DNA from: Chryseobacterium sp. G0186
GTDB taxonomy: Bacteria; Bacteroidota; Bacteroidia; Flavobacteriales; Weeksellaceae
Assembly: GCF_003815675.1 (NCBI RefSeq)
Contig: NZ_CP033918.1
Span: 2,542,001 to 2,606,000 of the forward strand
Direction of reading: 5' to 3'
Length of the DNA: 64,000 nt
Within the stretch, counting starts at the first letter, position 1. Every line of letters begins with the position of its first letter. This document shows positions 1,301 through 59,836 of the stretch, piece after piece. The notes below the pieces were generated by a model. It saw nothing but the letters and a program-made list of their open reading frames with translations. It had not been told where the DNA came from and ran no database searches. Both the position numbers and the translations under genes were made by a program.

Positions 1301-2437
1301 TTAGTATAAAGCTTTCCAATTAGTTCCATTACAACCTTCATGTGCTTTTGTAGCAGAATTATAGCGGATAGCCCCTTCTTCAGCAGAAGTACAGCTTCCA
1401 TTAGCAGTTGCACCTATACCTTTTATCTGAATGGCAGCTCCTGTTGATGTTGCAGCTGTAGGAATCATGTTAACGCCTAATATCGTATCAGATCCATTAT
1501 TCTCATTAAAAAATACATGTTTTGTATTGGCATATATAATCTGCCCAGCATTAGCCGTACCGGTAAATCCTATTGCCATTGCCTTAAGACCTTTTGCCGT
1601 ATTGGCTGATCCTAAAATAATATTATTAGAGGATGCTGTATTTCCGCTTCCAATTACAATTCCACCACTGTTATTGTTACTATTTCCCAAAGTAAGCCCT
1701 AAAGGACCGGGTGACATATTGCTATTACCAAAAACAAAATTGTTGGCTCCATCCGCAGTATTTAAATTTCCAATTGCTTTAGCTCCGTTCGTAGCAGTAT
1801 TCCCCATCCCAATAGCCAGGCCTGGAAAATTCCCTCCTTGGGCAGATACCGTATTATTTCTGCCTAATGCAACACTTGAAGAAGCGTTATTGGACAAAGT
1901 ATTGTTGGATCCCCAGCTAAAAGAGGCATAAGGCCCTGATGTATTACTTGCATTCCCTCCTCGTAAGTTGCCATTAGTATCCAGTATCCCCTTAACATTT
2001 TTTTGAGTGGCAAAAACCAGATTCTGGCCATCATTGGTTCCTAAATAATTTCCGGAAGAAATATCTACACCTAAGTTAGCGGCTGCTGCAGTAGTCCCGG
2101 AATTCCCGACTGTATACCAATCTGTGCTTAAACCACTCCATAGTTTGCCATCAAAATAATAATATCCGGGAGATACCACATTAACGGTTTGTCCAGTTGG
2201 AGCCGATTCAGCCACAGTAACATATACCATAGCTCCGGTTTGGGCATCTGTATAATTTTTAGCATTCAATTCAAGACCTGTAAGTCTTGGAGCAATAATA
2301 CCATCGAATTTATTAGTATCTGCTGCTGAACCTACAACATCTAAAGTTGCCTGGGGGCTATTCGTATTAATACCTATTTGCGCATTGAAAGCGTTCCCTG
2401 CGAATAGAATCGCAAGATAAAATAATTTGATTTTCAT
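1301..2437 (-). CDS. Secreted YadA-head-like repeat surface protein
   Basis: 378 residues. A signal peptide (MKIKLFYLAILFAGNAFNA) is followed by QIGINTNSPQATLDVVG, the usual mature start of many flavobacterial surface proteins. Residues about 160-310 hold short head-type repeats rich in GN/GS/A with the pattern AIGxxNTAxGxxNxxxGNxN, as in the heads of trimeric autotransporters (YadA family). The C-terminus has a conserved EEGAIRYNSATKxHEGCNGTxW motif. No membrane anchor and no T9SS tag are seen, so how it attaches is unclear. It is a close paralogue of 5297-6430 and is followed in the same way by a large multi-module protein, forming a duplicated two-gene cassette. Adhesin function is inferred from the fold only. 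Confidence 0.85.
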   Translation of the reverse strand: MKIKLFYLAILFAGNAFNAQIGINTNSPQATLDVVGSAADTNKFDGIIAPRLTGLELNAKNYTDAQTGAMVYVTVAESAPTGQTVNVVSPGYYYFDGKLWSGLSTDWYTVGNSGTTAAAANLGVDISSGNYLGTNDGQNLVFATQKNVKGILDTNGNLRGGNASNTSGPYASFSWGSNNTLSNNASSSVALGRNNTVSAQGGNFPGLAIGMGNTATNGAKAIGNLNTADGANNFVFGNSNMSPGPLGLTLGNSNNNSGGIVIGSGNTASSNNIILGSANTAKGLKAMAIGFTGTANAGQIIYANTKHVFFNENNGSDTILGVNMIPTAATSTGAAIQIKGIGATANGSCTSAEEGAIRYNSATKAHEGCNGTNWKALY

Positions 2438-2544: not shown

Positions 2545-2591
2545 CAAAATTAGTCTTAATGAACCTCAAAAAAAATAGTCGATATCTGTCA
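2545..2591 (-). promoter_or_regulatory. Promoter with TGACAGATATC box, spacing 28, copy A
   Basis: Read on the minus strand: TGACAGATATC (2591-2581), then exactly 28 nt, then TAATTTTG (2552-2545), which fits the Bacteroidetes -7 consensus TAnnTTTG. It lies 108 bp before the gene 1301-2437. The same box and spacing occur at 27235-27281 and 59790-59836. The box is probably the site of an unidentified activator or regulator. Confidence 0.7.
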
Positions 2592-9956: not shown

Positions 9957-10625
9957 TTAAAAGCCCGATGGCTTATTGATCGTTTGCGTAGAACCGTTAG
10001 TTCCTCCCAGATCAGCATTAACATCACCAATATTATGCTTGGTAATAAGTCTTTTATATGCCATCAAGTAAAGATCTACCGTAAAGTTGTTATAAACCCT
10101 GGATGGACCACCAGCAATATTGGCAATAATTCTACTATCTGTAAATCTTGCCTTTATGTGCCAGGTTCCATTGCTCTTGAATGCAATAACATCAGGAGAT
10201 CCCTGTTTATTATCATTATTCCCATTGTCTCCATAGTCAAGCATTACATTTGTATTGCCGTTATCAAGCCTAAATGAATAATTATGAAGAATAACCAAGA
10301 AGTTGTTTGCATCAATTTTAGTATCATAATCAGTAATTCCCAATCCTGACACTCCGGTTAATGAAAGTTTGATATAGTTAAATAGTCCACTGCTTTCCTG
10401 GTTGGGATCATACAACTGCATTGCATTTTCTGAGGTTGCCAAAAAGCTTCCTCCCGTCATGGTAGGTTCTCCCGGATTTCGAAGATATAAAGTGTTTGTA
10501 TATGTCTTTCCGTTTACATCAAGGGTTTCTGTAGGTTTATCTGTTTTGATTCCTACTTTACCAATCTGAGCATTCATCATAATTCCCAGACCTATCATTA
10601 TTGTAATATAAATTTTTCTTCTCAT
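9957..10625 (-). CDS. Small secreted protein with VGIxTxxPTETLDVNG start
   Basis: 222 residues. Signal peptide MRRKIYITIMIGLGIMMNAQ, then IGKVGIKTDKPTETLDVNGKTYTN, the mature start shared by flavobacterial surface proteins. The remainder is beta-rich with patterns such as DTKIDANNFLVILHNY and GTWHIKARF. Closely spaced (6 bp) third gene of a three-gene set with 10632-11273 and 11286-11906, which share the same size and layout (KFLVVI/KYVVAI motif, W-x-L near the C-terminus). Function unknown; structural paralogues probably work together on the surface. Confidence 0.8.
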   Translation of the reverse strand: MRRKIYITIMIGLGIMMNAQIGKVGIKTDKPTETLDVNGKTYTNTLYLRNPGEPTMTGGSFLATSENAMQLYDPNQESSGLFNYIKLSLTGVSGLGITDYDTKIDANNFLVILHNYSFRLDNGNTNVMLDYGDNGNNDNKQGSPDVIAFKSNGTWHIKARFTDSRIIANIAGGPSRVYNNFTVDLYLMAYKRLITKHNIGDVNADLGGTNGSTQTINKPSGF

Positions 10626-24480: not shown

Positions 24481-24481
24481 G

Positions 24482-24554
24482 AGCGGAAGACGGGGGTCGA
24501 ACCCGCGACATTCAGCTTGGAAGGCTGACGCTCTACCAACTGAGCTACTTCCGC
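24482..24554 (-). tRNA. tRNA-Gly (TCC anticodon), copy 1
   Basis: 73 nt. Acceptor GCGGAAG/CTTCCGC, anticodon loop CTTCCAA (TCC), T-loop GGTTCGACCCC. Identical to copy 2 at 24907-24979. A promoter lies 35 bp upstream. Confidence 0.96.
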
Positions 24555-24588
24555 AATTTTGTTTCCAAAACTATTGGTAAACGCTGTG

Positions 24589-24619
24589 CAAAACTAAGAA
24601 AATTAATCTAATCTTGCAA
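24589..24619 (-). promoter_or_regulatory. Promoter for tRNA-Gly copy 1
   Basis: Minus strand TTG (24619-24617), 20 nt, TAGTTTTG (24596-24589). It matches the Bacteroidetes consensus and is conserved before copy 2. Confidence 0.7.
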
Positions 24620-24641
24620 GTTTTTTTTCTAATATAAAATG

Positions 24642-24722
24642 TGGGGAGAGCAGGATTCGAACCTACGAAGCCGAAGCAACTGAGTTACAGTCAGTCCCAT
24701 TTAGCCACTCTGGAATCTCCCC
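24642..24722 (-). tRNA. tRNA-Tyr (GTA anticodon), copy 1
   Basis: 81 nt with the long variable arm of class II tRNAs. Acceptor GGGGAGA/TCTCCCC, anticodon loop CTGTAAC (GTA), T-loop GGTTCGAATCC. It differs from copy 2 in the T-stem region (CCTACG versus CCTGCG on the plus strand). Confidence 0.95.
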
Positions 24723-24740
24723 AGATATTTTATATTAAAA

Positions 24741-24817
24741 TGGAGCCTCCAGAGGGATTCGAACCCACGACCCCGAGATTACAAATCACGTGCTCTGGCC
24801 AACTGAGCTATGGAGGC
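24741..24817 (-). tRNA. tRNA-Thr (TGT anticodon), copy 1, CCA encoded
   Basis: 74-nt body (24744-24817) plus an encoded CCA (24743-24741). Acceptor GCCTCCA/TGGAGGC, anticodon loop TTTGTAA (TGT), T-loop GGTTCGAATCC. The duplicate at 25167-25240 lacks the encoded CCA, so the two copies differ just past the gene body. Confidence 0.95.
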
Positions 24818-24874
24818 ATTTTAATATTTAGACTGAAAGTGATAGAGAAACTCTACTCTACACTTTTCAGTGTT

Positions 24875-24905
24875 AAAAAAATCACTTTTTAAAGTGTGAT
24901 TTTTT
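24875..24905 (-). terminator. Hairpin after tRNA-Gly copy 2
   Basis: AAAAAATCA...TGATTTTTT stem with an imperfect CTTT/AAAG inner part, ending in a U-run on the minus strand. It separates the two duplicated tRNA blocks. Confidence 0.55.
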
Positions 24906-24906
24906 G

Positions 24907-24979
24907 AGCGGAAGACGGGGGTCGAACCCGCGACATTCAGCTTGGAAGGCTGACGCTCTACCAACTGAGCTACTTCCGC
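24907..24979 (-). tRNA. tRNA-Gly (TCC anticodon), copy 2
   Basis: 73 nt, identical in sequence to copy 1 at 24482-24554, including the flanking AATTTTGTTTCC. Confidence 0.96.
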
Positions 24980-25013
24980 AATTTTGTTTCCAAAACCATT
25001 GGTAAACGCTGTG

Positions 25014-25044
25014 CAAAACTAAGAAAACTTATTTAATCTTGCAA
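25014..25044 (-). promoter_or_regulatory. Promoter for tRNA-Gly copy 2
   Basis: Minus strand TTG (25044-25042), 20 nt, TAGTTTTG (25021-25014): same elements and spacing as the promoter of copy 1. Confidence 0.7.
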
Positions 25045-25067
25045 GTTTTTTTTATAAAAATATAAAG

Positions 25068-25148
25068 TGGGGAGAGCAGGATTCGAACCTGCGAAGCCGA
25101 AGCAACTGAGTTACAGTCAGTCCCATTTAGCCACTCTGGAATCTCCCC
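25068..25148 (-). tRNA. tRNA-Tyr (GTA anticodon), copy 2
   Basis: 81 nt, class II, GTA anticodon. Nearly identical to copy 1. Confidence 0.95.
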
Positions 25149-25166
25149 AGATATTTTATATTAAAG

Positions 25167-25240
25167 AGCCTCCAGAGGGATTCGAACCCACGACCCCGAG
25201 ATTACAAATCACGTGCTCTGGCCAACTGAGCTATGGAGGC
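25167..25240 (-). tRNA. tRNA-Thr (TGT anticodon), copy 2
   Basis: 74 nt, body identical to copy 1. The sequence after the discriminator base is CTTT instead of CCA, so CCA must be added enzymatically. Confidence 0.95.
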
Positions 25241-27234: not shown

Positions 27235-27281
27235 TGACAGATATCCGTCATATGTAATTACTTTTCAGTCAATTAACTTTG
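27235..27281 (+). promoter_or_regulatory. Promoter with TGACAGATATC box, spacing 28, copy B
   Basis: TGACAGATATC (27235-27245), 28 nt, TAACTTTG (27274-27281). Here the box extends to an imperfect 16-bp palindrome (TGACAGATATCCGTCA). It drives the surface-protein genes from 27674 through a long leader. Confidence 0.7.
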
Positions 27282-27673
27282 CTGTTAAAATAATTCTTCA
27301 ATTATCTCTAAAACAAAAACAAAAGATATACACTACGCATATTGGACCAGGCTGACATCAACATCGTCATTCTGGATAATAATGTTTTAAGAGTTAGAAA
27401 TAAAAATTTTCAACCATAAAAAACCAAATAATAAAAAAACAATATTTCCATGAGACAAAATATTTACTATTAAATACTTCACATTCATTTCAACACCGCC
27501 TTCCTGTTACAGCCATTAAATTAGGGTATAATGTTCTCTCATCCCAAATTTAATGTTTATCCTATTTTAATAAGGATATGATAAGCACTACCAATAAAAA
27601 CAAATTAATTAATACAGAATTATTATGAAAAAGAATATTTAATTAAAAAAACAGCTTAAAAACAAAAAAAATA

Positions 27674-29497
27674 ATGAAAAAAAAATTATTATTGCTTGTG
27701 TGTATTTTTTTGCTATCAAAAATACACAGTCAAGTAGGAATAGATACGTCTACTCCTCATCAAAAAACAGTATTAGATGTTGTTTCTAAAACAAATAATA
27801 CCGGAGTATTATTTCCCAGGCTTACAACCTCCGAAATCGCTTCCATTAATCCCACTGTTGGAGATATTACTGTAAACGGATTATGGGTTTATAATACGGA
27901 TACGAAGTGTTATAACTACTGGGGAGCAGCTTCTCAAAATCAATGGATGCAGATTTGCGGAACGCCAGTTACTGCCGGCTCTGCAGTATTAAACTGTACC
28001 GGAGCCACTTCCACGGGGACTTTGGTGAGCGGACAGGCTGCCAATGGTGTTTCTGTTACAGTTCCTTACACAACCGGAAATGGAGGTCCATATGCACCGC
28101 AAAGTATCAGCTCTACCGGTGTGACAGGCTTAACCGCGAATATTACTGCCGGAAATTTCAACAACGGATCCGGAAATCTTGTATTTAATGTATCTGGTCT
28201 ACCGTCCGGTAGCGGTACGGCAATTTTTGCCATTAATATGGGAGGCTCTGCCTGTTCCGTAAGCGTAAATGTGGATCCAACTCCGGGGCAGGCAGTATTG
28301 AATTGTAATGGTACAACCACTTCAGGAACATTGGTTGCAAATATGGCAGCAAACGCAGTATCCTTTACCATACCATATACAGCAGGTAATGGCGGTCCTT
28401 ACACGGCACAAAATATTGCATCTTCTGGGGTAACAGGCTTGACTGCGAGCTTACCTGCGGGAAACTTCAATAATGGATCCGGAAATCTTGTATTCAGTGT
28501 ATCCGGTGCGCCGTCCGGTAGTGGTACGGCTGTTTTTAGTATTGTAATTGCGGGGCAGACCTGTAATGTGTCAATGACAGTACAGGCTGCCATAGGAACC
28601 TTCAACAATCCTGCACCAAGTTGCCAGGCTATATTTGATAAGTACAACTCATCAAGTGTTCTTGTTGCTAATGATGGCGAATATTGGATAGGAACCAGTT
28701 TCATTGATAAGTATAAGACCAGATGTGATATGGTAGATACAACAGAAGCGCTGGCATTAAAGAAAATAGTGGGAGGATACACCTTATTATGGTCCTATTC
28801 TGAAGCAACGGCCACAGCAGACGGAGCATGGGGAACCAATGGATTGCTTAACTGGAGTAATACAGCACTTGATAACAGGAATGTGGTAACAGCACCCAAT
28901 GGCACCATAAATTATAATGATTTCAGGATTACAAGTATGGAAAAATCAAGATGGGCCAACAATGCTGTAAGACAGACGTTTACAGATGAGCCAACCAATT
29001 CAAACAAGAGTCTACAAACCTACCTCAACTATCCTCAATCAGGTATTATTGATGGCGGACAGGACTTCCGTAATGTAGGGATAGGGACTGTTTCCGGTAA
29101 ATATCTTGGCGGTGATTTCTTCGTTATGAAAAATACATCCGGAGACCGGGCAACGCTATATATAGATGGGATAATGATACAGAATAATATTTATTTCTAC
29201 AATTCGTCCTATAATACCCACTGGGATAATACAACATACAGGTATTCACCAACGATTAACGGAGGAAATGGGGCTGTTATTTCAAACTTCCCTTTATGGG
29301 TAGTTAATGAATGGTCCAGTGAAATGCCTTTTGGAAAGTGCAGAACCACTTCAAGCTATACTGCGCCAGCACCGCTGGGAGGAGGTTATCCTTCTAAAAC
29401 ATTCACGGATGCCTGTCAGCCCAATAATTCAACAATGAACCGACATTTTGGTATAAACGGTACACAGGGATATGTAATGCAGTGGTGGGCAAAATAA
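27674..29497 (+). CDS. Modular secreted protein with fibrinogen-like C-terminal half
   Basis: 607 residues. Signal peptide MKKKLLLLVCIFLLSKIHSQ, then VGIDTSTPHQKTVLDVVSKTNNTGVLFPRL, a conserved surface-protein start. Two 85-90-residue repeats follow (about 110-200 and 205-300) with the pattern L-N-C-x-G-x-T-x-S-G-T-L and AGNFNNGSGNLVF. The C-terminal half opens SCQAIFDKYNSS, DGEYWIG and TRCDMVDT, which recalls fibrinogen-related domains (GxYWI ... YCDM). No T9SS tag is seen. The gene at 29560 shares the N-terminal half and the repeats but has a different C-terminal domain. Surface role inferred. Confidence 0.82.
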   Translation: MKKKLLLLVCIFLLSKIHSQVGIDTSTPHQKTVLDVVSKTNNTGVLFPRLTTSEIASINPTVGDITVNGLWVYNTDTKCYNYWGAASQNQWMQICGTPVTAGSAVLNCTGATSTGTLVSGQAANGVSVTVPYTTGNGGPYAPQSISSTGVTGLTANITAGNFNNGSGNLVFNVSGLPSGSGTAIFAINMGGSACSVSVNVDPTPGQAVLNCNGTTTSGTLVANMAANAVSFTIPYTAGNGGPYTAQNIASSGVTGLTASLPAGNFNNGSGNLVFSVSGAPSGSGTAVFSIVIAGQTCNVSMTVQAAIGTFNNPAPSCQAIFDKYNSSSVLVANDGEYWIGTSFIDKYKTRCDMVDTTEALALKKIVGGYTLLWSYSEATATADGAWGTNGLLNWSNTALDNRNVVTAPNGTINYNDFRITSMEKSRWANNAVRQTFTDEPTNSNKSLQTYLNYPQSGIIDGGQDFRNVGIGTVSGKYLGGDFFVMKNTSGDRATLYIDGIMIQNNIYFYNSSYNTHWDNTTYRYSPTINGGNGAVISNFPLWVVNEWSSEMPFGKCRTTSSYTAPAPLGGGYPSKTFTDACQPNNSTMNRHFGINGTQGYVMQWWAK

Positions 29498-29559: not shown

Positions 29560-31281
29560 ATGAGTAAAAAAAAATTATTATTACTCCTGTGTATTTTTTT
29601 GTTATCAAAACTATACAGTCAGGGAGGAAAAGTAGGAATAGATACTTCTACTCCTCATCAAAAAACAGTTTTGGATATTGTTTCCAAAACCAATAATACC
29701 GGGGTATTGTTCCCCAGGCTTACAACCTCCAATATTGCATCAGTTAACCCAACCATAGGGGATGCCCTTGTTGATGGATTATGGGTGTACAATACGGATA
29801 CCAAATGTTATAACTATTGGGCTGCTGCTCCTCAAAACCAATGGCTGCAGATTTGTGGAACACCGCTTACCATAATTTCTACGGGAGCAGCTACATTAAA
29901 CTGTACAGGGGCCACTTCCACAGGGACCCTGGTGAGCGGTCAGGCAGCAAGCGGGGTATCGGTTACTGTTCCTTACACTGCCGGAAATGGAGGGCCATAT
30001 TCGGCGCAAAGTATTGCATCAACAGGAGTGGCTGGCCTTACAGCCAATATTGGGGCCGGAAACTTCAACAACGGATCCGGAAATCTTGTATTCAATATAT
30101 CCGGAGCTCCGACAACAAGCGGTACGGCAACCTTTGCCATTAATATGGGAGGGTCCACCTGTTCTGTAAGCGTAAATGTAAATACAAACCAAGGTCAGGC
30201 AACATTGACGTGTAACGGTACCACAACTTCCGGAACATTGGTTGCAAATACAACTGCAAGCGGAGTGTCCTTTACCATCCCATATACTGCAGGTAACGGA
30301 GGTCCTTATGCTGCGCAAAGTATTACTCCAACAGGGGTGGCGGGCTTAACGGCCTCTATTGCTGCCGGGAACTTCAACAATGGATCGGGAAGCCTTACCT
30401 ATACGGTGAGTGGACAACCTACATCAGCAGGAACGGCAAGCTTTGCAGTAAACATAGGAGGTTCTACATGTACCGTTAACCTTACCGTAATTGCAGGATA
30501 TAATTTATCCAAGCTGAAAATACTTTCTGTGGGACTAGCTCCTTGGGGGATAGATAGTAGTGTTAATAGTGGATTAGGTGTTGTGATGGAAAATCCATAT
30601 ATTTTCAGCTCTTATTATCCCGGCGGCAGTAATACTGCTGCGCCGTTCCAGACAATCGGTAATTGGGATATAACAAGGCGTTCTGTAGCCAGCGGTGGTA
30701 TTAATGATTTAAATAATAGTGGCTATAAATTACTACTGGTGGGTTATACGTATGATATTACTGCCTCGGAAATAGCTTCTGTTCAGGCGTTTGTGAATAA
30801 TGGGGGAACTGTTATCTGGTATAGCGAAGTTAATTCTGTAAATACAGCCAACCTTGTAAGAACCTATGTGGGACAAGGGGCTACAATGAGTGCCCTAGGT
30901 GATTGCTATGCAAACAATACAGGATCTAGTATTTTGGTTGGTGACTTTGGAGATGCAAGACTTATGAAGTATGGTAATGATGCCTGTAATCCCAAATCCT
31001 GGAGCGGAGTCAATTTTAATCTAATTGAGCCATTATCTTTTTCTCCGACTAACCAGAATATTGTTGGATTCAAATCTAAAACCAGTGAATTCTATTGGTT
31101 TGGTGACGGTGGGATGACTTTTTACAGCGGAGGTGTACCTCCTGTAAGCGGCAATAGATATCCATGGCTGTTGGATGGCGGTCAGAGACCTGTCATTGGT
31201 ACATGGAATAACCAGACTAATATATCCAATTCTGTTATGATGATGAATATTATTGTAAAAGCAATGAAAGCTGCACAATAA
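29560..31281 (+). CDS. Modular secreted protein, same N-terminal half, different C-terminal domain
   Basis: 573 residues. The signal peptide, the VGIDTSTPHQKTVLDIVSKTNN segment and both L-N-C repeats are nearly identical to 27674-29497. From about residue 315 the chain diverges fully: KLKILSVGLAPWG, YKLLLVGYTYDIT and VQAFVNNGGTVIWY resemble a Rossmann/GATase1-like alpha-beta fold used in some extracellular proteins. It lies 62 bp downstream of its paralogue and is followed by a terminator, so the two form one unit. Binding partner unknown. Confidence 0.82.
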   Translation: MSKKKLLLLLCIFLLSKLYSQGGKVGIDTSTPHQKTVLDIVSKTNNTGVLFPRLTTSNIASVNPTIGDALVDGLWVYNTDTKCYNYWAAAPQNQWLQICGTPLTIISTGAATLNCTGATSTGTLVSGQAASGVSVTVPYTAGNGGPYSAQSIASTGVAGLTANIGAGNFNNGSGNLVFNISGAPTTSGTATFAINMGGSTCSVSVNVNTNQGQATLTCNGTTTSGTLVANTTASGVSFTIPYTAGNGGPYAAQSITPTGVAGLTASIAAGNFNNGSGSLTYTVSGQPTSAGTASFAVNIGGSTCTVNLTVIAGYNLSKLKILSVGLAPWGIDSSVNSGLGVVMENPYIFSSYYPGGSNTAAPFQTIGNWDITRRSVASGGINDLNNSGYKLLLVGYTYDITASEIASVQAFVNNGGTVIWYSEVNSVNTANLVRTYVGQGATMSALGDCYANNTGSSILVGDFGDARLMKYGNDACNPKSWSGVNFNLIEPLSFSPTNQNIVGFKSKTSEFYWFGDGGMTFYSGGVPPVSGNRYPWLLDGGQRPVIGTWNNQTNISNSVMMMNIIVKAMKAAQ

Positions 31282-31335: not shown

Positions 31336-31809
31336 ATAGGTATACCCTCATTGAAAAAGAGGATTGAGATCCTTCGGTGAACTATTCAGGACATAGGCAG
31401 CCTTATAGCCATTGCGGATATTTTTATTGTGAAATTGATAGATTTCTGCTATTTCCAAAGATTTATTATGTTGATAAATTTGATATAAAATAAAATAGCT
31501 TCAAAAAAAAGGTTTGTTACTGAGTGTATGAATGCTTGGTTAAAAAGATTCAAAGCCATACTAATACACTTTGAAATTTGTGCTTTACATTGAAAATGTA
31601 ATCAGCCCGTGGTTTTTTCTGTATTCTAATCAGGAAAGTTTAGACAGGTTCAATATTTATAATTATTACCCAAAGAAAATTAAAAAAAACAAAGTTGGGA
31701 TGATTGATATATCCCAAAAAAAGGCAGAGTATTAAAAGCACCTATCTCCTATTCTTCTTCTCCCTATTTAAATATAAAATTACAGTTAACAGTTTATCAA
31801 AAAATTAAA
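31336..31809. other. Non-coding region before 31810
   Basis: About 470 bp, AT-rich, no gene seen. TAAATTTG at 31475-31482 fits a plus-strand -7 element but lacks a clear -33 and would leave a leader of about 320 nt. No TGACAGATATC box occurs here. Confidence 0.4.
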
Positions 31810-34755
31810 ATGAAAAAATATCATTTACTTATTGTGCTTTTTGCAGCCAATGCTGTGGCACAACAGTCTCCAGGCGGAGTTTCCCTCAATTTGCAGGTTT
31901 GGATGAAAGCTGATGCAGGGCTTAGTAAAACCGGTAATAATATCACCGCATGGAAAGATCAGTCTCCCAATGCATTTTCTCCTACTGTTGTAGGTGGACC
32001 GCCACAAGCGGGAAGTTTTGTAAACTTCAACCCGGTGGTTAAAATTACAGGATCCGGAATTAATGGAGGATATTTTAGAATTCCTACCACAGCTACTAAT
32101 TTTGCCAACCTTAATGTTACGGTAGGCAGCGCGCAAACCGAAGTTTTTTCCTCTGTCTTTGCGACCAGAACTAACAACTATTCTTCCATTGTTGCAAAGA
32201 ATAACGGAGGAATCTGGGATGGGATTACTTTAGCCAACGTCACACCTTCAGGCACTGTTTACCAAACCGGCTATGCGGTCTCAGATTGGTTTGATAATGG
32301 TGCCAACACTTCTGCACAGCAGAACATAGACCACAGTACGGCTAAAATATTTTTACTGCATGGCGGCAATACACAATCCGGATCTACCAACACCAACAGA
32401 TTTAGTGTAAACGGAAACACAAACACCATCAACAATACTGCATTCTTTAATCCCAATCCTTATGATTTCACCATTGGTAATAATTCTGCTAGCGGTACAC
32501 AATATGGGTTTGAAGGATTAATAGGAGATGTTATTTATTATAACAAAAATTTAAACACTACAGAAACCCAGAAAGTCAATTCTTATCTTGCCATAAAATA
32601 CGGGGTAACATTAGCCAGTAACCAAAGCTATATTTCCAGTGCAGGTACGGATTTTTGGACAGGAGGTGTAGTACCAACCTCTACCTATAACAATAATATT
32701 TTTGGTATTGCAAGGGATGATTCCGGAAGTACTGACCAAAGACAGAGCCAAAGCCAAAACACAGGAATTCAGCCAATTTTAACCAATGGCTCTGCGGGTT
32801 TAGTAACTACCAACAGCGCCGCCCCTACCCTGAGTGATCTATCCTCCTCCATAATAGGTTCCGATACCGGATCAACAGGCTATGCTACTCCTATTACAGG
32901 ACCATCCGGTGTTGTTGTCAACAATAGAACAGATAGAATTTGGCTGGTGCGGGAGCAAACAGGAACAGTGGGAAACGTTACCATAAGTTTTCCTGCAAGT
33001 GCCAAGAAGGTTTATGTCGTAAGATCTGCTAATCAAGACACCACTTTTGATGCTACAGACACCTGGATAGAACTCACCAATCCTACCGTAATAAATGGGG
33101 TTACCTACGTGAGTGCTACGATAGATTTTGCCAACAATGACCTGTTTACCTTTGCAACCTTTAAACCTAGCCCGGGAGGTGTTGCAAGCGGCATCTCTTT
33201 ATGGAACAGAGCAGATGTAGGAGTATCTCCTACTTCCGGAACCATCAATACATGGACAGATCAGGCCTCAGGCCATATTGCCACACAATTAGGGACCGAT
33301 GGCACCCCATCCAGTATTGCCGGTAGCAAAACCAATCTAAACTTCAATCCAGGTATTAACTTTACAACAGTTCTTCAAAGAATTGGTAATATTTCAGTAC
33401 AAACCGTAAACAGTCTGGATTATGATATTTTTAATGTCACGAAACACGGAATGTCTGGTAATGATTTCTTTGGTATAGCCAGGAATAACACAACTATGGA
33501 TGGCACCAATTATGATTCACCGCATTTTGAAGTGAGTGGATTGATCTACATGAGAAACAGCGTCGGAACACTATATTCCATCAATATTGGAGCGTATGAT
33601 AATACCATACCTACAATTAGCTACACTCAGGTTAAAGACTTAAGTATAGCAGCTGCCAAAAATGGAAACAATACATTTACCTCTACCAACTATCCGGCAA
33701 AAGGAGCAATCACGGGAGGCTATATCTTCGGAAGGAATGCAGATGCAGGGACTGGTGGTGACGATTCCGGCATCACAGGAGTGATTGGAGAAAACATCGT
33801 TTATTCCAGAACCCTTACTCCTATTGAGAGACAAAAAGTAGATTCCTATCTGGCCATAAAATACGGTTTAACTCTCAGCACTTCTGCGACACCGTTAAAC
33901 TATCTGAACAGTGCAAGTACTACCACTACAGATAATGTAGTATGGACCGGAGTAGGAAATACAACCTACTACAACAGGGTATTTGGCATTGGCAGAGATG
34001 ATTCTGGTGGTTTGGATCAAAGAATTTCAATCTCAGCAGATCCCGCTGCTATTGTTACCCTTAGTACCGACAACGATTTTACCAGCCAAAATGCACCTAC
34101 CACCAGCCATCCTGCAATTGGAGCAGACAAACAATTTACCATGGTCGGAGATAATAACTTACCACTACCACCACAACCCTATAATCAGACTGTAACTATA
34201 GGAGGCAAAACATTAAACAGGCTCTCTAGAGTATGGAGAGCACAGGATACAGGTGATATGGGATGTGTTAACGTAAGAATCGCCACCAATGTTGCAGGTA
34301 ACAGTATACCAGCGCCTACAGGAGGAGGTAGCTTGTATGCAATATTGGCAGATGACCCCGGTTTCACCACGAATGTATCTGTAAGGAAAGTTACCTATAG
34401 TGCCACTAATATAGACCTTGCCATTAACTTTAATGCCAATAGCAATAATAATTATTTTACACTTGCTGTTCTACCTGCCGGTTCTATCTCTGCACCAGTT
34501 ACCGGTAAGATTGTAGGTATTAGTACAGTAGATGATACCTGGAAGCCTACAAGCAACAACACTTACCTAGATTTACATTCTCAGAAAACAGGATTTGTTA
34601 TCTCACGCGTTACTACTGCCAACAGATTGGCTATGATTCAACAACCTGGGCTCATGGTATATGATATAGAATTGGCAAAATTCTATGTAAGTAATGGAAG
34701 TGCCTGGAGAGAGTTAGGTGTTTCAGCAAATGTAAAATCTAATTTTTGTAATTAA
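31810..34755 (+). CDS. Large secreted protein with two LamG-like (DUF8202-type) units
   Basis: 981 residues. Signal peptide (MKKYHLLIVLFAANAVAQ). Two parallel units: SPGGVSLNLQVWMKADAG ... and SPGGVASGISLWNRADVG ..., each followed by a concanavalin/LamG-like jelly-roll region, a QKVNSYLAIKYGxTL motif and an NxxFGIxRDDSGxxDQR segment. I recall this combination from flavobacterial surface proteins with DUF8202. The end (MIQQPGLMVYDIELAKFYVSNGSAWREL) matches the short VYN-G-W ending of the next gene product. No T9SS tag is seen. Likely carbohydrate or protein binding on the surface, by fold only. Confidence 0.8.
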   Translation: MKKYHLLIVLFAANAVAQQSPGGVSLNLQVWMKADAGLSKTGNNITAWKDQSPNAFSPTVVGGPPQAGSFVNFNPVVKITGSGINGGYFRIPTTATNFANLNVTVGSAQTEVFSSVFATRTNNYSSIVAKNNGGIWDGITLANVTPSGTVYQTGYAVSDWFDNGANTSAQQNIDHSTAKIFLLHGGNTQSGSTNTNRFSVNGNTNTINNTAFFNPNPYDFTIGNNSASGTQYGFEGLIGDVIYYNKNLNTTETQKVNSYLAIKYGVTLASNQSYISSAGTDFWTGGVVPTSTYNNNIFGIARDDSGSTDQRQSQSQNTGIQPILTNGSAGLVTTNSAAPTLSDLSSSIIGSDTGSTGYATPITGPSGVVVNNRTDRIWLVREQTGTVGNVTISFPASAKKVYVVRSANQDTTFDATDTWIELTNPTVINGVTYVSATIDFANNDLFTFATFKPSPGGVASGISLWNRADVGVSPTSGTINTWTDQASGHIATQLGTDGTPSSIAGSKTNLNFNPGINFTTVLQRIGNISVQTVNSLDYDIFNVTKHGMSGNDFFGIARNNTTMDGTNYDSPHFEVSGLIYMRNSVGTLYSINIGAYDNTIPTISYTQVKDLSIAAAKNGNNTFTSTNYPAKGAITGGYIFGRNADAGTGGDDSGITGVIGENIVYSRTLTPIERQKVDSYLAIKYGLTLSTSATPLNYLNSASTTTTDNVVWTGVGNTTYYNRVFGIGRDDSGGLDQRISISADPAAIVTLSTDNDFTSQNAPTTSHPAIGADKQFTMVGDNNLPLPPQPYNQTVTIGGKTLNRLSRVWRAQDTGDMGCVNVRIATNVAGNSIPAPTGGGSLYAILADDPGFTTNVSVRKVTYSATNIDLAINFNANSNNNYFTLAVLPAGSISAPVTGKIVGISTVDDTWKPTSNNTYLDLHSQKTGFVISRVTTANRLAMIQQPGLMVYDIELAKFYVSNGSAWRELGVSANVKSNFCN

Positions 34756-55568: not shown

Positions 55569-56363
55569 TTAAAGTATAAGCAGGCTATGATTCATAGTGT
55601 ACGCAATCAGTTCTGCTGAAGTTTTAGTATTCGTTTTATTTCTAAGGTTACGTTTATGGTTTTCAACTGTATGATAAGATAGAAAAAGTTTTTCAGCAAT
55701 TTCTGGGCTATTTGAACCTTGCGCCATAAGATTCAGCACCTCTTTTTCACGTTTTGTAATAGTGGGCTTTTCAGCATCTATTTTAAGTAACCCCTGATCA
55801 ACGTGCTTAAAGTATTGAACTTCATTATCATTAAAATCTAATATCGAAAGCAAAGGCAGGTTTTTAATAACGAAATGAGAAAGATCATAAATCATAATTA
55901 TAGATGCTTTTACTTCGTAATTAATAATAATTTGATGGGGAGATTGCAGTAATATCCAACGATATTCTCCATTTCTACCTATCATTCTGCCGTAATAATT
56001 GAATATCACATTAGTTTTCCCTTCCGTAAAAAACTTTACAAGTATATCTCTAGTAAAAGCAAATGCCGCCATTATATATTGCCTGTCTTCGGGATGAAAT
56101 AAATTAATAAAAAAATCATTCCCTGGAGTAATCCAATCTTCTTTGTTAAGAGGAGTAAATTGTTCAATATTTACACTGGTTCTTTCAATTCTCAAATTTG
56201 TAGCATTATGAATAAACCAAAAATAAGGTGCTATAGCAAAGCGTTTAGCATTTTTAATTGAATCGTCAAAAGAATCAAGATAATTAGCAGGTAACTCTCC
56301 ATCTTTTTTATCAAAATAATCATTAAATTGATTTATATCGATTGGATGAATTTTTTTTCCCAT
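55569..56363 (-). CDS. PAS-like/LuxR-type transcriptional regulator, copy 1
   Basis: 264 residues. The N-terminal ~190 residues resemble a PAS fold (FINLFHPEDRQYIMAA, GEYRWILLQSPHQII). The C-terminus is a LuxR/GerE HTH: TKREKEVLNLMAQGSNSPEIAEKLFLSYHTVENHKRN. No receiver domain or membrane span, so it probably senses a cytosolic ligand. Very similar to the gene at 56634-57407. It lies just outside the island's right end. Confidence 0.88.
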   Translation of the reverse strand: MGKKIHPIDINQFNDYFDKKDGELPANYLDSFDDSIKNAKRFAIAPYFWFIHNATNLRIERTSVNIEQFTPLNKEDWITPGNDFFINLFHPEDRQYIMAAFAFTRDILVKFFTEGKTNVIFNYYGRMIGRNGEYRWILLQSPHQIIINYEVKASIIMIYDLSHFVIKNLPLLSILDFNDNEVQYFKHVDQGLLKIDAEKPTITKREKEVLNLMAQGSNSPEIAEKLFLSYHTVENHKRNLRNKTNTKTSAELIAYTMNHSLLIL

Positions 56364-56633: not shown

Positions 56634-57407
56634 TTAAAGTATAAGCAGACTATGATTCATAGTATAAGCAATCAACTCTGCTGAAGTTTTAGTATTTGTT
56701 TTTTTTCTAAGATTACGCTTATGGTTTTCTACTGTATGATAGGACAGAAAAAGCTTTTCTGCAATTTCCGGACTATTAAAACCTTGTGCCATAAGATTTA
56801 GTACTTCTTTTTCACGTTTTGTGATAGTGGGTTTTTCAGTATCTATTTTAAGTAAGTCCTGATCAACATGTTTAAAGTATTGAACCTCATTATCATTAAA
56901 ATCTATTATGGAAAGTAAAGGCAGATTTTTAATAACAAAATGGGAAAGATCATAAATAATAACTATAGATGCTTTTATTTCGTAATTAATAATAATTTGA
57001 CGCGGAGATTGCAGTAATATCCAACGGTACTCTCCATTTCGGTCTATCATTCTTCCATAATGATTGAACACCACATCAGTTTTTCCCTCTCTTAGAAACT
57101 GCATTCGTAGGTTTGTAGAAAAAACAATTGCGGCCATTATATATTGCCTGTCTTCCGGATGGAACAGATTAATAAAAAAATCATTCTTTGAATTAGTCCA
57201 ATCTTTACTCCTAAATGAAGTAAATTTTTCAATATTTTTACTGGTTCTTTCAATTCTCCAATTTATTGCATTATGAATTAGCCAGAAATAGGGCGCTATA
57301 GCGAATCTTTTAGCATTCTTAATTGAATCCTCAAAAAAATCAAAATAGTCAGCAGTCAGCTCACCTACTTTTTTATCAAAATAATTATTAAATTCTAGTT
57401 CATCCAT
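56634..57407 (-). CDS. PAS-like/LuxR-type transcriptional regulator, copy 2
   Basis: 257 residues, alignable end to end with copy 1; the HTH differs at only a few positions (NSPEIAEKLFLSYHTVENHKRNLRKK). The N-terminus lacks the first few residues of copy 1 and starts MDELEFNNYFDKK. Tandem duplication with a 270-bp spacer. TAGTTTTG (57591-57584) lies about 180 bp upstream and could be a -7 element. Confidence 0.88.
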   Translation of the reverse strand: MDELEFNNYFDKKVGELTADYFDFFEDSIKNAKRFAIAPYFWLIHNAINWRIERTSKNIEKFTSFRSKDWTNSKNDFFINLFHPEDRQYIMAAIVFSTNLRMQFLREGKTDVVFNHYGRMIDRNGEYRWILLQSPRQIIINYEIKASIVIIYDLSHFVIKNLPLLSIIDFNDNEVQYFKHVDQDLLKIDTEKPTITKREKEVLNLMAQGFNSPEIAEKLFLSYHTVENHKRNLRKKTNTKTSAELIAYTMNHSLLIL

Positions 57408-57959: not shown

Positions 57960-58274
57960 TCAGTTATTTTTTATCTTTTTTTTCCAGGCTGCTATTGTAT
58001 TCCGACTTACCTTAAATACTTCAGCCGTATTCTTGTTAGTCATCTTATTTTTTTTCTGGTATTCCAATATTTGAGCTATACTTTCATCATCATAAGACTT
58101 ATGCTTATTATTTGTTTCAGAATCATAAAATAAAATACGGGTAAGGATTATAACATCCAATGATGACAATCTTTCTTTTTCCAAAAAATATTGACAAGTT
58201 GAAAGCTTTTCTGGTTTTTTTTTTGAAATAATATCTGAAAAAATTTTCACATAATCCGGTTCTCTCTTTTCCAT
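57960..58274 (-). CDS. Small HTH protein
   Basis: 104 residues. The C-terminal NKMTNKNTAEVFKVSRNTIAAWKKKI is a homeodomain-like or transposase-type HTH; the helical N-terminal part is unassigned. It may be a regulator or a domesticated transposase DNA-binding part. Neighbour genes on the same strand show related HTH proteins (58602-59024) and a decayed copy. Confidence 0.65.
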   Translation of the reverse strand: MEKREPDYVKIFSDIISKKKPEKLSTCQYFLEKERLSSLDVIILTRILFYDSETNNKHKSYDDESIAQILEYQKKNKMTNKNTAEVFKVSRNTIAAWKKKIKNN

Positions 58275-58601: not shown

Positions 58602-59024
58602 TTAAGGCTTATATTTTCCAAGCCATTTGTATAGTGTTGTTTTTGGGATTCTATAATCTTCAATAACCTGAGTTTTTGTTTTTTCTCCATTTTCTATCAG
58701 ATCTATAATGAAATCAATAATTTCTTTTGTATAAATATTTTTTCTGAACTTTGGCAGGGCCGATTTTTGTTTTACCCCTGATTGCTTTTTTGTAAGCACG
58801 GGAGCATACAAAATCAAATGCTGAGTATAAATTCTAAAAAAATCATACTCTAAAAGTTTACTCCACCTTAATATAATTTCACAATCCACACTTTTTAAAG
58901 TATACATTTCATTGACTTCATCTTCAGAGCAATTCATGAATTTACAAATGCGGGAAATTTCAATTCCAGATTCTACTACTTCATTCTTAATCATCTGGCC
59001 TATATGTATATTTTTAAAATCCAT
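58602..59024 (-). CDS. HTH protein (transposase-like DNA-binding family)
   Basis: 140 residues. KWSKLLEYDFFRIYTQHLILYAP-type block near the middle (LLEYDFFRIYTQHLIL) is one I recall from a Chryseobacterium/Elizabethkingia family often labelled transposase or HTH protein. The C-terminal KTKTQVIEDYRIPKTTLYKWLGKYK is a clear HTH. No catalytic transposase domain is present. A broken relative lies just downstream (58303-58434). Confidence 0.7.
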   Translation of the reverse strand: MDFKNIHIGQMIKNEVVESGIEISRICKFMNCSEDEVNEMYTLKSVDCEIILRWSKLLEYDFFRIYTQHLILYAPVLTKKQSGVKQKSALPKFRKNIYTKEIIDFIIDLIENGEKTKTQVIEDYRIPKTTLYKWLGKYKP

Positions 59025-59468
59025 TCATTATTTATTTAAGATTAAATTATGAGGTAGCATACAACAGAAGAGTACGAGTTGGCAACTGTAATTTTCTCTC
59101 TTTTCAAACTACAACCCCTTAAAAACATTCATAACCAAATAGTATATATGTTTTACTATGCTATGACTTTATATTAAAATCATTTAAACTCAACAAACAA
59201 ATAACTATATAACAGTTATATAAAAATTTTAAGCTTCTCTATAATGTAATTACATTAATGAAGACTTTTGTAGGACCTCAAACTTGCTGAGATATTCGAA
59301 GCTGCAATACCTATCCCAACTTGTCATTTGATAAAATCACATCTTTTATAAACAGTGCTTCAACACTTAATATTTTTTTATACAATTAATTTAAATATTG
59401 GAGTTAGTACACTCCCTCTAAGAACTATCTATATTAATTTTTAAACATTCTGCATTAATATCATAACC
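59025..59468. other. Non-coding, AT-rich region
   Basis: Part of a 1.2-kb stretch (59025-60222) without an intact gene. No open frame, repeat or strong promoter is visible in this first third. Confidence 0.4.
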
Positions 59469-59494
59469 TATCAAAACTTGAGTTGGTTTTGATA
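59469..59494 (-). terminator. Terminator-like hairpin after the decayed surface gene
   Basis: 9-bp stem TATCAAAAC (59469-59477) / GTTTTGATA (59486-59494), 8-nt loop, immediately past the pseudogene. Confidence 0.6.
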
Positions 59495-59496
59495 TA

Positions 59497-59675
59497 TTAT
59501 TCATCTATCTTATTACCATTAGACTCCAAAGAGTTCCTTGGTACTTCATTTTTAGGTTTGTGGAAATTATCTTAGGAATAATTAAGGGACATGTAGTTTT
59601 TAAATTAATACCTATCCGTCCGAATACATGTGAGGTATATAAAAACATATCCATCAAAATCATTATTTTTTTCAT
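59497..59675 (-). pseudogene. Remnant of a secreted surface-protein gene
   Basis: From the Met at 59675 it reads MKKIMILMDMFLYTSHVFG then RIGINLKT, a degraded form of the signal peptide + QVGINTKT start of the surface proteins. About 20 codons later the natural frame seems to shift: the frame that ends at 59497 reads DNFHKPKNEVPRNSLES. The body is missing. It still has a copy of the TGACAGATATC promoter 115 bp upstream and a terminator, so the transcription unit outlived the gene. Pseudogene status is an inference. Confidence 0.5.
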
Positions 59676-59789
59676 TATTTTCATTTTATAATTAATCACA
59701 ATTTTCAACATTTAATAAAAGCTGTAATTTAATTTAAGTAAAAGGTTTGTGTTTTTTTTTACCGAATTGCTTCAGTATTATCTTGAGCC

Positions 59790-59836
59790 CAAAGTTATTA
59801 GACCGCAAAATCAAAACCTATAGTAGATATCTGTCA
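59790..59836 (-). promoter_or_regulatory. Promoter with TGACAGATATC box, spacing 28, copy C
   Basis: Minus strand TGACAGATATC (59836-59826), 28 nt, TAACTTTG (59797-59790). Same box, same spacing, same -7 type as copies A and B, here before the decayed surface gene. Confidence 0.7.

Follow-up and report, generated by a model that had tools for sequence, protein, structure and literature searches.

The 64,000-nt stretch of Chryseobacterium sp. G0186 analyzed here (contig NZ_CP033918.1, positions 2,542,001 to 2,606,000 of the forward strand; hereafter the window) contains promoters in which a 16-bp inverted repeat, TGAYAGATATCTRYYA, stands at a fixed distance upstream of the Bacteroidota −7 element TAnnTTTG. 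This box is very probably recognized by a PAS-LuxR sensor-type regulator encoded in the same window. Specifically, we consider it highly likely that the box is the operator of a one-component PAS-LuxR activator, which would bind the inverted repeat as a dimer and switch on TAnnTTTG promoters by class II activation. The first-pass annotation of this DNA had proposed a regulator-dependent promoter class, and the comparative evidence, all of it computational, supports that proposal. The operator, its fixed spacing, the type of its targets, its co-occurrence and adjacency with PAS-LuxR genes, and the joint variation of recognition helix and box were computed directly; from these we infer DNA binding, activation rather than repression, dependence on a signal and autoregulation. 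The promoter class is real, and with good confidence it can be regarded as representing PAS-LuxR one-component control, through its own operator, of secreted surface-type genes in Bacteroidota.

Operator Structure in the Window and Genome

The 11-mer TGACAGATATC, initially described as the box, was found exactly at 2591-2581 (minus strand), 27235-27245 (plus) and 59836-59826 (minus), and exactly 28 nt separate each copy from its −7 element (TAATTTTG, TAACTTTG and TAACTTTG, respectively). When one mismatch was allowed, the window held 8 matches (two of which are the same inverted repeat read on both strands) vs. 1.14 expected, a number reached in none of 100 shuffles. The box was described correctly only as a part, since the 11 bp are the left portion of the 16-bp inverted repeat, while the fixed spacing stood: counted from the 16-mer it amounts to 23 nt before TAnnTTTG, equal to the 28 nt first noted. 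The box center, previously placed near −45, moves to −43.5 if TAnnTTTG spans −12 to −5, the position of the Bacteroidota sigma-A −7 element according to the passages available from PMC9723704. With the same placement the predicted box spans −51 to −36, the conserved T residues on its 3′ side fall at −35 to −33, and the transcription starts given below are predicted.

Operator 1 (TGACAGATATCGACTA, 2576..2591, minus strand) has a perfect left half and a degenerate right half, and its −7 element TAATTTTG (2545..2552, minus) predicts a start near 2540. Operator 2 (TGACAGATATCCGTCA, 27235..27250, plus strand) matches 15 of the 16 letters of the perfect inverted repeat TGACNGATATCNGTCA, the A5/C12 pair being broken, and is followed by TAACTTTG (27274..27281, plus), with a predicted start near 27286. 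Operator 3 (TGACAGATATCTACTA, 59821..59836, minus strand) is paired with TAACTTTG (59790..59797, minus), for which a start near 59785 is predicted. A fourth site, overlooked in the first-pass annotation, lies ahead of a 981-amino-acid (aa) gene and reads TGATAGATTTCTGCTA-N23-TAAATTTG (operator 31436..31451 and −7 element 31475-31482, both plus strand; predicted start near 31487). Its acceptance rests on a 78%-identical gene of a different genome (G084, locus L071), which is preceded at that place by a perfect box, TGACAGATATCTGCTA-N23-TAACTTTG. The right half is weak in two of the four window operators (that at 2591 and, in part, that at 59836), so that the left half alone is well kept there; sites in related genomes extend to the full TGAYAGATATCTRYYA.

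The genome scan revealed one further exact site, at C1:4640584, and the reversed-pattern control gave none. With up to three mismatches, 53 matches were obtained vs. 22 for the control, which indicates that many three-mismatch matches are due to chance. Seven sites were therefore credited in this genome: four exact, two with one mismatch (757043 and 3632958) and one with two mismatches (window 31436, that is, C1:2573436). Four other two-mismatch matches (449003, 2775202, 2791170 and 3414665) were set aside, of which only 449003 was looked at.

Conservation of Spacing Across Genomes

A search of this and related Chryseobacterium genomes for the box followed by TAnnTTTG, as the first-pass annotation had suggested, showed a strong preference for the 28-nt gap. 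Among 118 genomes of the genus, with gaps of 13-43 nt allowed, the 11-mer was found at 30 places, 19 with a gap of 28 nt, one with 29 nt and 10 with other gaps; these 10 lack the continuation into the inverted repeat and resemble chance matches. The preference was sharper for the 16-mer (173 genus genomes, gaps 8-38), which was recovered at 30 sites distributed over 15 genomes. The gap is 23 in 29 of them and 24 in one, and the control gave no match. Over all fetched loci and the same range of gaps, 37 distinct sites were recovered, of which 35 have a gap of 23, one of 24 and one of 8. The 35 gap-23 sites fall into 19 groups that differ outside the box and the −7 element. Across these non-redundant groups, which were chosen with the 16-mer itself as the pattern, the close flanks are conserved as well, with A just 5′ of the box in 17-19 of the 19 groups and T, W, T just 3′ of it.

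This divergence bears on the idea that the sites merely descend from a single promoter, carried along as gene clusters were duplicated, without selection for an operator. Such clusters are indeed duplicated within genomes, and 11 of the 35 gap-23 sites form a single group with similar spacers. The explanation is nevertheless scarcely credible, as the box, gap and close flanks are kept across 19 groups that otherwise differ, and the same design precedes unlike genes in Pedobacter and in loci from metagenome-assembled genomes (MAGs). Descent alone was disfavored on these grounds, being largely contradicted by the divergence of the 19 groups outside the box and −7 element.

In a sample of 395 genomes of the phylum, the box promoter was matched in this genome only; the PAS-LuxR search described below did not cover the 394 others. 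Two loci of different genomes (L033, and L142 at 4480) have a gap of 24 nt with TATATTTG, suggesting that one extra base may be tolerated. When 31 distant loci were scanned for inverted repeats of any kind ahead of TAnnTTTG, with no reference to the box, no clear peak emerged (three at gap 23, two at gap 24 and at most three at any other gap).

Genes Downstream of the Box Promoters

The proposal that these promoters precede surface-protein genes was supported by a survey of 23 distinct sites (25 rows with two repeats), for each of which the first downstream open reading frame (ORF) of at least 60 aa was taken. At 13 sites this ORF encodes a signal-peptide-like protein of the QVGIN/QVAIN/QIGIN type, some of them short or broken, including the window's decayed gene. 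The remaining 10 sites are mixed. One precedes the 981-aa protein, and at another a short ORF lies ahead of the orthologue of that protein; one each is followed by a further secreted protein, a TonB-receptor-like gene, a small helix-turn-helix (HTH) gene and, at a two-mismatch site, a GcvH-like gene. Two have fragments, and L004 and L005 have no clear gene. The labels LytTR, SusC/TonB-receptor, IS3 and GcvH reflect a reading of the sequence rather than a family search. The term "surface" is used because the protein starts are signal-peptide-like, which would suggest display on the cell surface.

Within the window, operator 1 precedes a gene for a 378-aa signal-peptide-like protein starting with AQIGINT (1301..2437, minus strand). 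Operator 2 precedes a 607-aa signal-peptide-like SQVGIDT protein (27674..29497, plus), which is followed by a related 573-aa gene (29560-31281), and operator 4 precedes the 981-aa protein, also signal-peptide-like (31810..34755, plus). The four intact target-type proteins of the window that were searched, including the 378-aa protein, gave no Pfam or NCBIfam match. Operator 3 precedes the broken-frame remnant of a short QVGIN-type surface gene (59025..59713, minus), intact relatives of which follow the box in L036, L038 and L053.

Two further sites of this genome differ in their surroundings. At L069 (box at 9958, C1:3632958) the genes that follow the box promoter are TonB-receptor-like (978 aa) and of 497 aa, respectively, and the regulon may thus extend past QVGIN-type proteins. 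At L067 (box at 9984, C1:4640584) a perfect box promoter has no ORF of at least 60 aa within 1 kb downstream on the same strand, and transposase-like genes lie past it on the opposite strand; this promoter possibly served a now decayed target or serves an RNA gene.

Association of the Box with PAS-LuxR Regulators

No regulator had been suggested for the box in the first-pass annotation. Co-occurrence and adjacency now point to the PAS-LuxR proteins encoded within the window, of 257 aa (56634..57407, minus strand; GerE and PAS_3 both above cut-off) and 264 aa (55569..56363, minus; GerE above cut-off, PAS_3 just below). Domain matches, a structure model and fold matches all show the architecture of this family, an N-terminal PAS domain and a C-terminal LuxR-type HTH; in the model (pLDDT 85, pTM 0.66), a single turn of helix 230-244 separates residue 234 from residue 238. 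Both genes share their strand with the third site and lie farther downstream, beyond the decayed surface gene and two small HTH genes; they end the same-strand gene run that this site heads. The third PAS-LuxR gene of the genome, at C1:757938, begins approximately 850 nt after the box at 757043. Among 23 stretches of approximately 20 kb around sites, 17 contain a PAS-LuxR gene, and in L073, L074, L085 and L089 the box lies between divergent genes, one of which encodes the regulator.

The association extends over the genus. Among 173 genomes, PAS-LuxR proteins were detected in 19 (E ≤ 1e-40) and the box promoter in 15; 13 genomes carry both, two the box only, six the protein only and 152 neither (p = 2e-13). 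When the 22-bp operator pattern WWWTGAYAGATATCTRYYAWWW was sought without the −7 element, it was present in 16 of the 19 protein-positive genomes vs. none of 20 protein-negative ones, taken from 154 by handle number (p = 3e-8). Both p-values are too small, because closely related genomes are not independent. The protein-only genomes are G052, G088, G093, G097, G122 and G156. In G088, G093 and G097 the PAS-LuxR gene is followed at approximately 30-35 bp by the 22-bp pattern, which there stands at the head of the next gene and has GAACTTTA or GAGCTTTA where a −7 element would be expected. G052, G122 and G156 have variant boxes, TAATGGATATCTACTA or TAGCAGATATCTACTA, at gap 23 within the PAS-LuxR locus.

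A scan of named genomes added 51 loci. Among distant relatives, a perfect 16-mer was located 25-97 bp before the PAS-LuxR start in five Pedobacter, two Lacihabitans, one Flavobacterium, one Kaistella (L162) and two Bacteroidota MAG loci (L163 and L164). In these 11 loci the box faces the divergent gene, and TAnnTTTG at gap 23 is exact in the five Pedobacter loci and has one or two letters changed in the remaining six. A box with 0-1 mismatch precedes the PAS-LuxR gene within 400 bp in 15 of the 43 loci L131-L173; in others the box heads a more distant gene or lies after the gene for the regulator. When 420-bp stretches were drawn at random from these loci, 34 of 2000 draws contained a 0-1-mismatch match, a figure that is itself raised by true boxes. 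The downstream genes of the distant loci are mostly signal-peptide-like, several being of the QVGIGT type.

The distribution of neighboring genes also helps to weigh other candidate binders. One is a small HTH protein whose gene stands between those for surface proteins and those for PAS-LuxR, represented in the window by a 140-aa protein with a C-terminal resolvase-type HTH (HTH_7; 58602..59024, minus strand) and a 104-aa protein with weak HTH matches (57960..58274, minus). Such genes accompany most Chryseobacterium clusters, and one box (L048/L089) immediately precedes a gene of the 104-aa type. Recognition of the box by these proteins is still highly improbable, as tblastn detected them in only four of the 33 loci L141-L173 (L143, L144, L149 and L152), all from Chryseobacterium, and outside this genus the box and PAS-LuxR remain together without them; on this distribution they were disfavored as the regulator. 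As an observation in its own right, the pair of 104-aa and 140-aa HTH genes recurs in Chryseobacterium surface-gene clusters.

Alternatively, a regulator of another type, such as CRP/FNR, could bind the box, the PAS-LuxR gene being a linked neighbor only. Sites of the CRP/FNR type are 16-bp dyads near −41.5, and an operator of that type was considered first for this reason. The architecture of the box alone would suit several regulator families, and some sites are far from any PAS-LuxR gene. We regard this alternative as distinctly unlikely, since the occurrence of the box parallels that of PAS-LuxR in different genera and orders, and the box varies together with the recognition helix of that protein. 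The CRP/FNR-type operator was dropped once PAS-LuxR genes appeared beside the boxes, which was a matter of judgement, no CRP-family search having been made.

Joint Variation of the Recognition Helix and the Box

Residues 234 and 238, which presumably correspond to base-contact positions of NarL, were compared with the box bases in a table of 53 protein-box rows; nine of the 62 proteins had no assigned box, although two of the nine, L128 and L129, do have boxes. All four Gln234 rows pair with C6, and 48 of the 49 Glu234 rows pair with G6; the lone exception comes from an Elizabethkingia locus in which the Glu protein has a Gln protein as its neighbor. T4/A13 occurs with Ser238 in 10 of 10 rows and with Arg238 in 3 of 39; this second link is a preference. 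In a tree built without the helix, Ser requires at least five changes and Gln three.

The C6 version of the pattern, sought in 296 genomes of the family, matched five sites in four genomes. Three of these (G017, G216 and G242, handles that were paired with named contigs via coordinates) have four of the sites, at gap 23, and carry Gln234 PAS-LuxR proteins. The fourth, G281 (L215), has TGACACATATGCGTCA at gap 22 and no PAS-LuxR protein at E ≤ 1e-30, and may represent chance or another regulator. In addition, the genomes of C. oleae (L079/L080) and strain OV279 (L086/L087) each have clusters of both codes. If residue 234 and base 6, and residue 238 and bases 4 and 13, truly change in step, paralogous cassettes in one genome could be addressed separately. 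A Bacteroidota-wide system of signal-controlled surface display, in which each cassette has its own PAS-LuxR activator and operator code, the two co-varying, is a possible extension of this idea, though somewhat less likely than not.

Comparison with Known Systems

The PAS-LuxR activators of Streptomyces, such as PimM and PteF, bind the operator CTVGGGAWWTCCCBAG, a 16-bp inverted repeat in the −35 region, according to the available passages of PMC9774167. The present system resembles them in combining PAS with a LuxR-type HTH and in having a 16-bp inverted repeat in the −35 region with a central GAWWTC in the same register. It differs in the outer bases, TGAYA here vs. CTVGG in the passages of that source, so the operator is not of the PimM type. 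The targets are also unlike, as the neighbors here are secreted-protein and small HTH genes rather than an antibiotic biosynthesis cluster, and the host promoters are of the TAnnTTTG type. VqmA of Vibrio and phage, likewise PAS plus LuxR-type HTH, was matched by Foldseek over approximately 230-245 columns (E 5e-8 and weaker, one structure with DNA), although with 15-17% identity, TM-scores of 0.2-0.3 and a different arrangement of domains, so that the likeness to VqmA, which is characterized by DPO binding in its PAS domain, is one of fold only. The closest full-length solved chain by both fold (E 8e-11) and profile (E 3e-11) is 3clo, a putative LuxR-type regulator (NP_811094.1), with 17% identity and a low TM-score. 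The −7 element and its position agree with the Bacteroidota sigma-A promoters of PMC9723704, in the available passages of which neither LuxR nor palindrome occurs; unlike plain promoters of that kind, those described here have an operator added at a fixed 23-nt distance. Titles and abstract openings of the literature on LuxR/PAS regulators in Bacteroidota, or on the letters of the box, contained no description of this operator.

Proposed Mechanism

A PAS-LuxR dimer, perhaps with its ligand, would bind TGAYAGATATCTRYYA at about −43.5, just upstream of the −33/−7 region, and recruit sigma-A RNA polymerase to the TAnnTTTG promoter, with the PAS domain presumably making activation depend on a signal. 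The targets would be surface-type genes for secreted proteins; the gene run that includes the regulators may be a further target, controlled from the third site. The geometry is that of class II activation, as the operator adjoins the −35/−33 region at a fixed distance (gap 23 in 35 of 37 sites, center −43.5). It is unlikely that PAS-LuxR binds the box as a repressor, or acts in both ways depending on its ligand, a reading to which the divergent loci, where the box is close to the regulator's own start, lend some support. Against this reading, a center at −43.5 leaves the promoter free and is typical of class II activators, and at several sites the −7 element is poor, GAACTTTA being an example.

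Several observations weigh against activation by PAS-LuxR through this operator. The position of the sites, although it fits activation, is compatible with repression. Six of the 23 stretches of approximately 20 kb have no PAS-LuxR gene (L067, L069, L071, L078, L081 and L082), G006 and G065 carry the box without a PAS-LuxR protein at E ≤ 1e-40, and several of the 43 loci L131-L173 showed no box in the vicinity of the PAS-LuxR gene. As for the helix, the boxes of the table were picked by hand, one per multi-box locus, and paralogues from the same locus were counted twice. On well-supported branches of the tree, there are four independent pairs for Ser and two for Gln, with none in reverse, which is not significant; the independent changes are too few for significance to be within reach. 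Moreover, Pedobacter Arg238 proteins have mixed bases at 4/13, L077 combines an Arg238 protein with a second T4/A13 site that the table does not include, and in L122 a Ser238 protein (8426) accompanies a C4/A13 box.

To our knowledge, binding sites have been established for few transcription factors of Bacteroidota. In this case, a pattern present in three copies within a single window led to a candidate regulator family, an operator, a promoter geometry, a target class and two residue-base relations that can be tested by swaps. The operator could help to establish when these uncharacterised secreted proteins are produced by Chryseobacterium and its relatives, and could lead to the signal sensed by the PAS domain.

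Apart from these elements, the window contains genes for tRNA-Gly, tRNA-Tyr and tRNA-Thr arranged twice in tandem at 24481-25240 on the minus strand.
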